Origin: Actinomycetes bacterium
GTDB taxonomy: Bacteria; Actinomycetota; Actinomycetes; Propionibacteriales; Propionibacteriaceae
Direction of reading: 5' to 3'
DNA length: 36,314 bases
NCBI GenBank assembly: GCA_021803025.1
Contig: JAJZQV010000021.1
Location: 1 to 36,314 of the forward strand
Positions 7,124 to 11,541 of this stretch are shown here, piece by piece (positions within the stretch are counted from its first letter, which is position 1; each line of letters starts with the position of its first letter). The notes under the pieces are model-generated. The model was not told the origin of the DNA. It searched no databases and saw only the letters and a list, made by a program, of their open reading frames with translations. The position numbers were made by a program, and so were the translations under genes.

Positions 7124-7966
7124 TCAGGACAGGCGTGCCCGGCGCGCCGCGCGGTGCAGGACGTCGAGGATCGGGCGCCCGAGGACCACGAGGCCGATGC
7201 TCGTCGACACCGCGCGACCCGTGTCCCAGCCGGCCGTCGAGGTGAGCAGCGTGTACAAGCCGAAGCGCCGCAGGTTGTCGAGCCACGGCGCGCCGGGCAC
7301 GTAGTCCAGCCCGCCCGCAGGGCCGCCGTAGTCGGCGGTCGCGATGCCGGTGAGGGTCGGCCACGACCAGAGGTTCATGATCGCGCCGTACAGGTAGGCG
7401 GCGGCGATCCCGTAGCCGACGAGCATCGCGAGGTGGCCCACCGTCGCACGGCCGCGGGCCTTCCCCGGAAGCAGGCCCGCCCCGAGCCCCACCCAACCGG
7501 CGGCCAGCATCTGGAACGGCAGCCACGGGCCGACACCTGCGGTGAAGAGGGCGGACGTGGCCATCGACGTCGCTCCGAGGACGAACCCGAAGCCGGGTCC
7601 GAACGCCCTTCCGGCGAGGATGAGCAGCACGAACATGAACTCGATGCCTGCCGTGCCGGCCCCCAGCGCCGGCCTGAGGGCGGCGTTGATCGCGGTGAGC
7701 ACGCCGAGGAGCGCGAGGGTGCGGGTGTCCATCCCGCCGTCGGAGAGCTGGCTGAGCACGATGACGACGATGACGGGCACGAGGGCGGCGAAGACGACGG
7801 GCGCACCCTGGGTCTCCGCCCATCCGGTGGGGGAGGGGACGAGCAGCGGCCAGGCGAACAGGAGCAGTCCTGCGAGGGACGCCAGCGCGAGGATGGCTCC
7901 CGACCTCGCCCCGATCCGTACGGACACCTCGGGCGGGGAGACGTCCAGCTCGGCCCCCGCCGTCAC
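7124..7966 (-). CDS. ECF transporter S component (substrate-binding membrane subunit)
   Basis: A 280-residue integral membrane protein, the substrate-specific subunit of an energy-coupling factor importer. From about residue 65 it has the S-component pattern: LALLGVLTAINAALRP, then GIEFMFVLLILAGRAFGPG, GFVLGATSMATSAL and GPWLPFQMLAAGWVGLGAG. About 60 residues before this form an extra hydrophobic N-terminal segment, so the protein is longer than the usual 180-200 residues. The GTG start at 7966 overlaps the ATPase stop by four bases. It is the last gene of a T-A-S operon behind a cobalamin-riboswitch-like leader, so the substrate is likely cobalamin or a precursor, in the manner described for CbrT-type systems; that substrate is inferred from regulation, not from binding residues. 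Confidence 0.88.
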   Translation of the reverse strand: MTAGAELDVSPPEVSVRIGARSGAILALASLAGLLLFAWPLLVPSPTGWAETQGAPVVFAALVPVIVVIVLSQLSDGGMDTRTLALLGVLTAINAALRPALGAGTAGIEFMFVLLILAGRAFGPGFGFVLGATSMATSALFTAGVGPWLPFQMLAAGWVGLGAGLLPGKARGRATVGHLAMLVGYGIAAAYLYGAIMNLWSWPTLTGIATADYGGPAGGLDYVPGAPWLDNLRRFGLYTLLTSTAGWDTGRAVSTSIGLVVLGRPILDVLHRAARRARLS

Positions 7967-9546
7967 GACGCGGCCCTCGCCGTCAGCACCTCGGCCACGG
8001 TGAGCAGCTCGACGGGCGCGTACACCCGTGCGCACTGCGTCGCCAGCATCGCCGACGACGTGATGATGTCGCGGGCGGGGCCGTCGTCGACGATCTCGCC
8101 CTCGGCCATGACGACGACCCGGTCGCACGTGGCGGCGACGAACTCGGCGTCGTGCGTGGCGATGACGACCGTACGGCCGGCGTCGGCCTGGCCGCGGAGG
8201 ATCCGGGTCAGAGCCGCCTTGCCGGCGTAGTCGAGTCCTCGGGTGGGCTCGTCGAGCAGCACGACGCGGGGCTCCCGCACGAGCTGGACGGCGAGGACGA
8301 GCGCCAGCTTCTGCCCCTCGGACAGGTCGCGGGGGTGCTGGTCGCGCTCCACGCCGTCGACGAGCTCGTCGAGGATCCTTCCTGCCGACCCCGCGGACCG
8401 GTCGGCGTCGGCATCTGCCAGTGCCAGCTCTTCGGCGACGGTCGGCAGGTACAGCACGTCCGATGCCGTCTGCGGGACCAGCGCCACGTCGCCGGGGACG
8501 GCCGGCATCCCGTCGATGGTGATGCGGCCCGCCTTGCGCGAGCCGGACCCCTGGACGGCCCAGAGCAGCGACGACTTGCCGCACCCGTTGCGGCCTACCA
8601 GTGCGGTCACGAGTCCGGCACCGGCCGTGAGGGTGGCACCGCGGACGGCCACGAGCGACCCGTACGAGACGACGACGCCGTCGGCCACCAGACCTTCGCC
8701 CGTGGCGGCCGCGAGGGTCCCCAGGACGGGCGGGTGCTCGCGCCAGGCCGTCCGCTCGGCCCGGGCCGTACGACGCCCGTCACGGATCGTGAGGGGCAGC
8801 GGCGACCAGCCGGACCGCCGGCCCAGCTCGACCAGCGGGGGCGCGACGGGGGAGACGGACAGCATCTCCCGCGGCTCCCCCGAGCGTACGGAGCCTCGCG
8901 AGACGAGGATGACACGGTCGCAGAACTCGACGACCCTCTCCATGCGGTGCTCGGCCATCACGACGGTGAGCCCGAGGTCGTGGACGAGCCGGCTGAGCAG
9001 GGACACGACATCCTCGGCGGCGACAGGGTCGAGGGCGGAGGTCGGCTCGTCGAGGACGAGAACCCTGGGGCGCGCCGTGAGCACCGAGGCGATGGCGACC
9101 CGCTGCTGCTGGCCGCCCGACAGGGTGCGGAGCGCCCGCCGGCGCAGGTCCGTGATCCCCAGCAGGTCGAGGACCTCCTCGACCCGGACGCGCATGCGGC
9201 TCGGGTCGACGCCGAGCTGCTCCATCCCGAAGGCCAGCTCCGACTCGACGGTGTCGGTGACGAACCCGGCCAGGGGGTTCTGGCCGACGTAGCCGATCAG
9301 GTCGGCGAGCTCGCGCGGTGCGGCCGACGTGATGTCCGTGCCGTCGAGGACGACACGCCCGGTCCGGTGACCGCCGGTGAACCGTGGCACGAGGTTGGTG
9401 AGGCAGCCGAGGAGGGTGGACTTGCCGCTGCCGGTCTGCCCGGCGACGAGCGCGAGGTCGCCCTCGGGAATGTGCAGGGTCACGTCGTCGAGGACGGCAA
9501 CCGGCGAGTCCGCGTACCTGACTGTCACACCGTCGAGCGTGATCAT
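7963..9546 (-). CDS. ECF transporter ATPase, two fused ABC domains
   Basis: A 527-residue protein with two ABC ATPase domains in tandem, serving as both nucleotide-binding subunits of an ECF importer. Domain 1 has Walker A GQTGSGKST (about residues 35-43), signature LSGGQQQR and Walker B VLVLDEPTSALD. Domain 2 has GRNGCGKSS, a degenerate signature LSEGQKLALV and VVLLDEPTRGLD. The Q-loops and switch histidines (MAEHRME, ATHDAEF) are present. The ATG at 9546 is preferred over longer in-frame options because it starts the ABC fold and overlaps the T-component stop (ATGA, 9543-9546). Its own stop overlaps the S-component start. Cytoplasmic, bound to the membrane subunits. The asymmetry of the second signature is usual for fused EcfAA' proteins. 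Confidence 0.93.
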   Translation of the reverse strand: MITLDGVTVRYADSPVAVLDDVTLHIPEGDLALVAGQTGSGKSTLLGCLTNLVPRFTGGHRTGRVVLDGTDITSAAPRELADLIGYVGQNPLAGFVTDTVESELAFGMEQLGVDPSRMRVRVEEVLDLLGITDLRRRALRTLSGGQQQRVAIASVLTARPRVLVLDEPTSALDPVAAEDVVSLLSRLVHDLGLTVVMAEHRMERVVEFCDRVILVSRGSVRSGEPREMLSVSPVAPPLVELGRRSGWSPLPLTIRDGRRTARAERTAWREHPPVLGTLAAATGEGLVADGVVVSYGSLVAVRGATLTAGAGLVTALVGRNGCGKSSLLWAVQGSGSRKAGRITIDGMPAVPGDVALVPQTASDVLYLPTVAEELALADADADRSAGSAGRILDELVDGVERDQHPRDLSEGQKLALVLAVQLVREPRVVLLDEPTRGLDYAGKAALTRILRGQADAGRTVVIATHDAEFVAATCDRVVVMAEGEIVDDGPARDIITSSAMLATQCARVYAPVELLTVAEVLTARAAS

Positions 9547-10724
9547 GCGGTCGCCTCCGAGGTGGCGACCGGCGCGGGTGGCGTGATCGCCGAGGGGAGC
9601 AGGGCGACCACCGCGGCGACCAGGAGAGGGAGCGGCAGGGTCGGGATGTCCAGCGTGGGAAGGATCGCCGGGCTGAGGGCGGCTGCGTCGGGCCCGGCAC
9701 CCACTGCCGCGACGGCTGCGACCGGCGCGAAACCGCAGGCAACCGTCAGCAGCTCCGGGAGCAGCCAGCGGTCGGGTCGGTACCGCGACCTGCGGACGCC
9801 GTGACCCGACAGGCGGATGCTCAGCAGCGCCGCGAGGACGCCCGCGACGAGGAGGGCGTCTCGCAGGTGGACGGTGACCACCGACCCGAGAGCGACCGAC
9901 GGCAGCGTGCCGGACACGAGGTCGTACGCGAAGACCATGAGGCACCCGACGGAGGCGAAGGCGGTGAGCGCGGCCATCACCCGATGGCGCCGGCTGCCCG
10001 CAGGGGCGCGGCCGAACCCGCGCGCGTCCATGGACGCGGCGAGCGAGATGGCGGAGTCCAGTGCGTCGGCCAGCACGGGGACGACGAGGCCGCGGACCAG
10101 GCGCGACCGTTCGCGCCAGGACCGCGCCTGGGCGCTCGACTGGCGAAGCCGCCGTGCCCGGGCGACCCGCGCGGCGGACTCGGCGAGCTGGGGGAAGACG
10201 GTCACGGCGACGACGAGGACCGTGCCGATCTCGTACAGTGCCGCGGGCAGACTCCGCAGCAGCCTCCGCGGGCTGGCGAGCGAGTTCGCCGCCCCGACGA
10301 CGACGATGATCGTGCCGAGCTGGAGGCCGTCGTACGCGCCGTACAGGATGGACTCGAGCGACACCGGCCCGAGGAGCCGTACGCCCGCCACGACCGACGG
10401 GAGCGGGATGCGCGGCAGGGTGAAGAGCACGTGGTCGCCGTCGCCGCCGCCGAACACGATCCGGTAGAGGATCCGCACGACGAAGACCGCGGCCCCGAGG
10501 ATCGCGTACAGGCGGAACGACCGTGCCCAGGGTCCGTCGTCACGCCGGGACACGACGACGAAGGTGGCGGCCGCGAGCAGCAGGCCCTCGACGAGGGGGT
10601 TTGTCGTGAGGCTCGCGGCGGTCATGATGCCGAGGGCCCACAGCCACCACGCGACGGGATGGAGCGACCGCGGCAGCCGGTACACCGCCCAGCCCGACCG
10701 TACGGACGCGACGGCGGAGCTCAC
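9543..10724 (-). CDS. ecfT: ECF transporter T component (CbiQ/EcfT family)
   Basis: A 393-residue membrane protein, the scaffold that couples ATPase movement to the S component. Several membrane segments are visible (LHPVAWWLWALGIMTAAS, LLLAAATFVVVS, and further pairs towards the C-terminus). The cytoplasmic coupling region contains ASMDARGFG, the ARG coupling motif of EcfT proteins. The open frame extends upstream to 10913, but that start lies inside the riboswitch aptamer. I choose GTG at 10724 because it places the first membrane segment as in relatives and overlaps the stop of a 23-codon leader ORF (GTGA). No strong independent ribosome site precedes it (a weak GAAGG at about 10737), which supports translational coupling. 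First gene of the T-A-S operon. The family is firm, the start moderately so. Confidence 0.85.
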   Translation of the reverse strand: MSSAVASVRSGWAVYRLPRSLHPVAWWLWALGIMTAASLTTNPLVEGLLLAAATFVVVSRRDDGPWARSFRLYAILGAAVFVVRILYRIVFGGGDGDHVLFTLPRIPLPSVVAGVRLLGPVSLESILYGAYDGLQLGTIIVVVGAANSLASPRRLLRSLPAALYEIGTVLVVAVTVFPQLAESAARVARARRLRQSSAQARSWRERSRLVRGLVVPVLADALDSAISLAASMDARGFGRAPAGSRRHRVMAALTAFASVGCLMVFAYDLVSGTLPSVALGSVVTVHLRDALLVAGVLAALLSIRLSGHGVRRSRYRPDRWLLPELLTVACGFAPVAAVAAVGAGPDAAALSPAILPTLDIPTLPLPLLVAAVVALLPSAITPPAPVATSEATA

Positions 10725-10792
10725 GGCCGCAACCTTCGGGGGACGTGGCCGAGCGAGCAGGTTCTCCCGGCGGCGGGGCGCTGAGCCCTCAT
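10721..10792 (-). CDS. 23-codon leader ORF between riboswitch and ecfT
   Basis: An ATG at 10792 follows a strong purine-rich ribosome site (GGGAGAGGGG, 10806-10797) by four bases. The frame runs 23 codons (beginning MRAQRPAAGR) and stops with TGA at 10723-10721, which overlaps the ecfT GTG as GTGA. Third positions are 20 of 23 G or C. It lies downstream of the cobalamin-riboswitch-like aptamer and holds the only strong ribosome site between aptamer and transporter. I infer a leader peptide whose translation is gated by the riboswitch and re-initiates into ecfT. The peptide itself is Arg/Pro-rich and not recognised. It may have no function as a peptide. Confidence 0.5.
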   Translation of the reverse strand: MRAQRPAAGRTCSLGHVPRRLRP

Positions 10793-10869
10793 CCGACCCC
10801 TCTCCCAGTCCGATGGTGGAGGCCCGATCAACCGTCCGGTGCACCACGTCTGTAGTCCTCGACAGATCC

Positions 10870-10968
10870 GTACGTCCCTGCGGCATTCCGGCTCGTGACA
10901 TGTCGTCACACACGGCTGCGGGTCAGCGCCGGGTTCGGACCGGCTTCCCCACAGGGACCTGCGATAGC
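10870..10968 (-). promoter_or_regulatory. Cobalamin (adenosylcobalamin-type) riboswitch
   Basis: On the minus strand, the run GGGGAAGCCGG (10950-10940), then a GAACCCGG block (10936-10929), GCTGACCCGC (10927-10918) and CCGTG follows the conserved core of cobalamin riboswitches (GGGAA..CCGGUG..AA.CCGG.GCUGAC.CGCAACCGU). About 20 nt further comes ACGAGCCGGAATGCC (10897-10883), resembling the actinobacterial form of the B12 box. Aptamer ends are approximate. The aptamer precedes an ECF transporter, which fits control of vitamin B12 uptake: ligand binding should repress. The likely target is the strong ribosome site of the leader ORF at 10797-10806, so translational control is more likely than termination. 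Confidence 0.85.
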
Positions 10969-10982
10969 GCGCTCAGGCTATC
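10963..10982 (-). promoter_or_regulatory. Riboswitch promoter -10 with inverted repeat
   Basis: On the minus strand TAGCCT (10980-10975) fits TANNNT and would start RNA just before the aptamer. The same place holds an inverted repeat, GATAGC and GCTATC with an 8-nt spacer (10963-10982), which could be an operator or part of the 5' stem. No clear -35 box. Confidence 0.35.
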
Positions 10983-11171
10983 AGCCCCGGGCCTGTCCGG
11001 GACGGGCCCGGGCGGAGTCTCGCGGACAAGCCCAGCCGCGGCGGGTCTCTCTCCTCACGGGACCGATCGTCGACCCGCGACTCCGGTACGGCGTGGTGGG
11101 GCGTGCTGCGCGGCGGCCGAGTCCCTATGCGATCCGTGGACGGAACCGTCCCCGTCACCGACCCGCGGCGG

Positions 11172-11177
11172 TAGCCT
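11172..11177 (+). promoter_or_regulatory. -10 box TAGCCT before leaderless GTG
   Basis: TAGCCT lies 7 nt before the GTG at 11185, the spacing of a leaderless actinobacterial gene. It would drive the EamA remnant and azlCD. No -35 box is clear. A short inverted repeat GGACGG/CCGTCC sits upstream (11138-11151). Confidence 0.35.
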
Positions 11178-11184
11178 CACCCGA

Positions 11185-11541
11185 GTGGCGACGACCGAGG
11201 ACGTGCGGAGCGACCGTGGCGTCCGCGTTCACGGTACGGGGCTCGGCGCGCGTCCGATCGCGCTCGCCGGCGGCGGCATGGTCGTCGGTGCGGCTGGCCT
11301 CGCCGCCGGGGGCAGGTCGGGGCTGGTGCCGATGAGCTTCCGTACCGCGCCCGTCGAGCTGGTCGCGTCCTTCATCGCCCTCACCGACGTGCTGTTCGCC
11401 CTGGAGTTCGCGTGGCTGCTGCTGGGCGAGCTGCCCCGGCCCGTACAGCTCCTCGGCGGCGTCGTGCTGGTTGTCGGCGTCGCGATGGTCAAGCTCGGCG
11501 AGGGCCGTGCGGCCGACGCCTCCCCGGAGCCCCTGACGTGA
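11185..11541 (+). pseudogene. EamA/DMT transporter remnant with internal deletions
   Basis: An open frame of 118 codons whose second half is clearly the end of an EamA-family drug/metabolite transporter: ASFIALTDVLFALEFAWLLL, GELPRPVQLLGG and VVLVVGVAMVKLGEG match the last two membrane segments of proteins near 300 residues. Before it, MVVGAAGLAAGGRSGLVP looks like an earlier segment normally separated from this one by two more helices. At least eight helices are missing, apparently through in-frame deletions. The frame is intact, begins at a leaderless-type GTG (11185) and ends with TGA overlapping the azlC start (GTGA, 11538-11541). I infer a decayed transporter kept in frame, possibly because azlC translation is coupled to it. 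Confidence 0.7.

Follow-up and report, generated by a model that had tools for sequence, protein, structure and literature searches.

In a 36,314-nt stretch of a Propionibacteriaceae contig (hereafter the window), B12 control of an ECF transporter operon is probably exerted by a short cobalamin riboswitch and relayed to ecfT by a 23-codon open reading frame (ORF) that most likely represents an in-frame deletion remnant of a SCO2322-type gene. The T, A and S components of the transporter are all encoded in this one operon (Table 1), although the matches of ecfA to ECF ATPase models fall below the equivalog cut-offs. NTGA overlaps are present at all three operon junctions, with two further ones at 9546-9543 and 7966-7963 (-) in addition to that between the short ORF and ecfT, and from this arrangement the whole operon looks translationally coupled.

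Table 1 Features of the riboswitch-ecfT locus (window positions).
Feature	Position	Strand	Basis or remark
Cobalamin riboswitch aptamer core, short form	10882..10949	-	RF00174; homologous matches 5' of ecfT in G001, G002, G004, G005, G006
Near-invariant block CTGTCGAGGACTACAGAC between aptamer and ribosome site	10848..10865	-	5-bp hairpin in consensus fold
Candidate expression-platform hairpin GUGGUG (10847-10842) / CACCAU (10818-10813)	10813..10847	-	Sequence and folds, inferred
Candidate sequestering hairpin CAUCgGACU-GGGAGAGG-GGUCgGAUG	10790..10815	-	p = 0.04 in window; relatives not significant
Ribosome-binding site GGGAGAGGGG, core ACUGGGAGAGG	10797..10806	-	Same core in each of the six genus members
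23-codon ORF, likely in-frame deletion remnant of a gene for a protein with signal peptide and membrane segment	10721..10792	-	Comparison with 84-93-codon frames in four same-genus genomes
GTGA stop/start overlap of 23-codon ORF and ecfT	10721..10724	-	Sequence
ecfT, 393 aa, CbiQ-like T component	9543..10724	-	PF02361, 39 bits, cut-off 25
ecfA (527 aa), ECF ATPase with two domains, joined to ecfT by ATGA	7963..9546	-	ECF ATPase models
ECF S component (280 aa), joined to ecfA by GTGA	7124..7966	-	PF12822

The cobalamin-riboswitch-like aptamer proposed in the initial annotation was confirmed by an Rfam search, in which RF00174 scored 31.7 bits, just above its gathering threshold of 31.5 (E = 2.7e-6 when the local stretch is searched and 0.00016 when the whole window is). 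The riboswitch is of a short form that lacks the large peripheral extension, with 14 bases against a 68-position arm of the Rfam model, and the corresponding riboswitches of same-genus relatives score 23.9-35.6 bits. The window aptamer is predicted to bind B12. Neither aptamer loop L5 (ACCCG) nor the ribosome-site core ACUGGGAGAGG varies among the six genomes; an L5-L13 kissing pairing with this core is therefore possible, with the invariance of both sides leaving covariation uninformative.

The leader segment between the near-invariant block CTGTCGAGGACTACAGAC and the ribosome site is a variable hairpin. Within the block itself (10865-10848, -), the single change among the six genus members is A to T in G002. 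The candidate expression-platform hairpin, the equivalent of which in relatives is C(U/C)GGUG/CACUGG, and the ribosome-site hairpin are mutually exclusive; in the latter, the ribosome site occupies the loop and the AUG lies in the stem, and the GGG of this loop could kiss L5. The earlier proposal that the riboswitch masks the ribosome site of the ORF is plausible, with p = 0.04 for the hairpin in the window, but the same hairpin is not significant in relatives. No clear covariation for sequestration was found in the six-sequence set, for which the RNAalifold covariation term was slightly unfavourable, and the fold of the whole leader was no more stable than shuffles (z -0.02). Transcription attenuation by an intrinsic terminator was rejected, as no terminator-like site was found in 10650-11250.

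The ORF starts with ATG at 10792 (translation MRAQRPAAGRTCSLGHVPRRLRP) and ends in a TGA (10723-10721) that overlaps the ecfT GTG (10724-10722). Both this GTGA junction and the contrast between ribosome sites were as initially annotated: the predicted duplex with the 16S tail is -12.7 kcal/mol for the ORF, a value among the top 1% or so of window 19-mers, and -5.1 kcal/mol for ecfT, near the background (window mean -4.1, sd 2.8), with a moderate GAAGG 8 nt before the GTG as the gene's own site. A chance origin of the ORF was rejected on the basis of its rarity, since a single one of the 486 [AG]TGA sites in the window has such an ORF with so strong a site. Forty of these sites close an ORF that begins with ATG and is 15-60 codons long, 4 of the 40 ORFs have a ribosome site of -9 or lower, and the one reaching -12.7 is the ORF at 10792-10721.

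Among 57 genomes searched, comprising that of the window and 56 relatives, 49 have ecfT, and five of these are other members of the genus; the contigs matched in a named collection come from Propionibacteriaceae/Propionibacteriales metagenome assemblies, of which two carry the label fen. In four of the five (G001, G004, G005 and G006), the same riboswitch and ribosome-site core precede ATGAGGGCTGTTCGCCCCGC and an ORF of 84, 93, 84 and 84 codons, respectively, which ends in GTGA or ATGA on ecfT in all cases (example translation MRAVRPAAVALLALAMLLILVGPRQAAAASPQLPSAPTTAPPRATSLPGADEMAQSLDDDILTSGAIVLVSGMVGIAGLMWGRL). The ATG and the stop/start overlap on which the initial annotation depended are therefore kept in four of the five same-genus locus holders, whereas the 23-codon length is not, the frame being 84-93 codons long in these genomes and absent from G002. 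The pN/pS values among the four longer ORFs (0.28-0.55) denote purifying selection and indicate that these ORFs encode a translated protein, in which a signal peptide, a Pro/Thr-rich linker and a C-terminal membrane segment were recognised by eye, while no family model matched the 84-93 aa proteins. The contig of one of these loci (L012 in G006, DAIEHO010000258.1) starts with a stretch that resembles an Illumina P5 adapter (AATGATACGGCGACCACCGAGATCTACAC, at about positions 20-48 of L012), shortly upstream of the riboswitch, and its first bases are therefore unreliable.

The first 24 nt of the window ORF are identical to those of the relatives at 19-20 positions, compared with 16 for the next-best window position, and the window ORF is shorter than theirs by 183 or 210 nt, both multiples of three. 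No recognisable homology to the relatives was found in the middle of the 23-codon ORF, and the deletion breakpoint could not be placed by alignment of the window with the relatives. In G002, the ribosome site runs directly to GTGAGC and serves ecfT, with CTGTTCCCCCGCG retained between the two; this segment is close to ORF codons 3-7 (CTGTTCGCCCCGCG) and is a probable deletion scar. G002 falls outside the supported clade (95/96) of the window genome and the other four, pointing to two separate losses. Across the genus, the ecfT ribosome sites range from -5.1 to -9.2, and those of G004 and G006 nearly match that of the ORF (-9.2 and -9.0 versus -9.4). Together with the GAAGG before the window ecfT, these near-equal sites imply that coupling need not be strict.

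A broader comparison covered 75 further actinobacterial loci with a related ecfT from outside the window's genus. In 70 of the 75 loci, ecfT is preceded by an ORF of 120 codons or more, with an exact NTGA overlap in 42 of the 70; the median ORF length of about 306 codons is inflated because the farthest start codon was used, and in this wider class the upstream gene is full-length, at about 140-400 codons. A membrane segment and a basic tail are visible in many of the printed C-termini. Two tested upstream ORFs matched the SCO2322 family model (SCO2322_fam, NF040672) with 164 and 224 bits (cut-off 85), the others matching weakly or not at all, and the family is above the cut-off in 20 of the 57 genomes. 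None of the genomes of the window's genus has this domain above the cut-off, and the 84 aa relatives do not match it; the tie of the 84-93 aa proteins to the SCO2322 type is instead suggested by position, NTGA overlap and the layout of signal peptide, linker and membrane segment. Across Actinobacteria, the position between riboswitch and ecfT is thus usually filled by a full-length gene for a secreted or membrane protein of the SCO2322 family or a relative of it. As such upstream genes often overlap ecfT by NTGA, the GTGA junction of the window appears to be inherited from an ordinary overlapping gene pair rather than built for a leader peptide. Our literature search on SCO2322-SCO2325 returned nothing.

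The genus also has a second short B12 riboswitch locus, which leads to secreted proteins with a YWSYW-type motif. Weak SCO2322 relatives (17-25 bits, below the cut-off) lie near this second riboswitch in G001 and G002, and in the window genome a similar secreted protein is encoded after the second short riboswitch of that genome (contig 146). The genus may have its B12 uptake system divided between the two riboswitch loci. When the other riboswitches of the window genome were read by eye, no clear short overlapping upstream ORF (uORF) was seen.

The initial annotation had taken the 23-codon frame for a leader peptide as such, and a dedicated regulatory peptide that serves only to transmit the riboswitch signal to ecfT would account for the strong ribosome site of the ORF, the GTGA overlap and the weak site of ecfT, much as uPPE2 of M. 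tuberculosis does. The relatives speak otherwise, the frame being a protein gene under purifying selection in four of them and a full gene in the wider class, while in G002 the ribosome site works on ecfT with no ORF in between. A conserved leader peptide is largely refuted by the occurrence of the 23-codon form in one genome only, and we see little chance that the dedicated-peptide reading is correct. That this one genome is a fragmented metagenome-type assembly of 191 contigs raises the question of whether about 183 bases of a true 84-codon ORF were lost in assembly or sequencing. Such an artefact is very improbable: the frame is clean, the start and the GTGA junction are intact, and the internal bases are not a simple join of the relatives' sequence and have therefore diverged.

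The ORF could also be a functionless vestige, whether translated or not, with ecfT starting from its own GAAGG and any regulation acting through message stability or Rho-dependent termination. The range of ecfT sites in the genus fits this explanation, as do two genomes (G025 and G049) in which the riboswitch directly precedes ecfT with no usable uORF. In those two, however, ecfT has stronger sites of its own (-7.1 and -12.1, respectively), whereas that of the window is at background, and the GTGA junction has been kept exactly; we consider the vestige unlikely. In G049, a 25-codon frame ending in ATGA on ecfT is likely a chance frame, with no ribosome site (-3.2) against a strong one on ecfT (-12.1), and forms a useful negative control.

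Under the explanation that we favour, in which the deletion remnant relays B12 control, a short-form cobalamin riboswitch would act on translation through its expression platform, governing the ribosome site from which the first cistron in the ECF operon is translated. The ancestral first cistron would have been a secreted, membrane-anchored SCO2322-type protein with a stop codon overlapping ecfT; with the globular domain absent in the genus, 84-93 codons would have been left, and an in-frame deletion in the window would have reduced these to 23. As the remnant starts at the riboswitch-controlled site and ends in GTGA, finishing ribosomes would most likely restart on ecfT, and we infer translational coupling of the two from this layout. 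At high B12, the aptamer would close the ribosome site, shutting off remnant and transporter together, an OFF direction suggested by analogy with other translational B12 switches.

By our own estimate, the frame would be kept through a deletion about 1 time in 4 by chance without selection, which alone is not strong evidence of selection. We raise more tentatively, as a possibility open to considerable doubt, that a decaying riboswitch-controlled gene keeps its start site and junction by selection, as a non-protein translational relay, with the transporter needing delivered ribosomes. If so, mini, relay-only and fully lost stages would stand side by side in the genus, and neighbouring genera would still carry the intact gene. 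The locus suggests that leader ORFs can arise when an upstream gene erodes while translationally coupled, an origin made testable by the genus series of 84-93, 23 and 0 codons after the invariant ribosome site.

Among known systems, the window aptamer agrees with cobalamin riboswitches (RF00174) of the short type that lacks the P8-P12 extension in core junction, P3-P6 and B12 box, although its score is barely above the gathering cut-off. SCO2322 family genes 5' of CbiQ-type ecfT share the position and NTGA junction of the window ORF, and their signal peptide and C-terminal membrane segment recur in the 84-93 aa relatives; the globular domain, in contrast, is absent from this locus in the window's genus, and the window retains 23 codons. 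In the M. tuberculosis pe20 Mbox riboswitch, the translational platform likewise directly controls a small uORF, Rv1805A (PMC12810186, 2026), but this riboswitch senses magnesium, the Rv1805A peptide is highly conserved and, in the available part of that report, an overlap relay is not mentioned. The arrangement, which the initial annotation had thought not commonly described, has a closer precedent in M. tuberculosis ppe2, where a B12 riboswitch is followed by the uORF uPPE2, which bears the only ribosome site, and then by an AUGA overlap (PMC11260477, 2024). Loss of the uPPE2 ribosome site or start severely lowers PPE2, and ppe2 expression is strictly dependent on uPPE2 translation, mainly through termination-reinitiation (PMC11260477). 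The window uORF similarly follows a B12 riboswitch, bears a strong ribosome site and shares an NTGA stop/start overlap with the main gene; ppe2 has no ribosome site, and the window ecfT has the near-background GAAGG site. The two differ in the downstream genes, which are PPE2-cobQ in one case and an ECF transporter in the other, and in host lineage. While the M. tuberculosis relay has been proven by reporters, the window uORF can be traced to a protein gene that was probably lost by deletion. A relay of this kind, until now described as an M. tuberculosis oddity, would thereby be extended to another family of Actinobacteria and to a B12-type ECF transporter.
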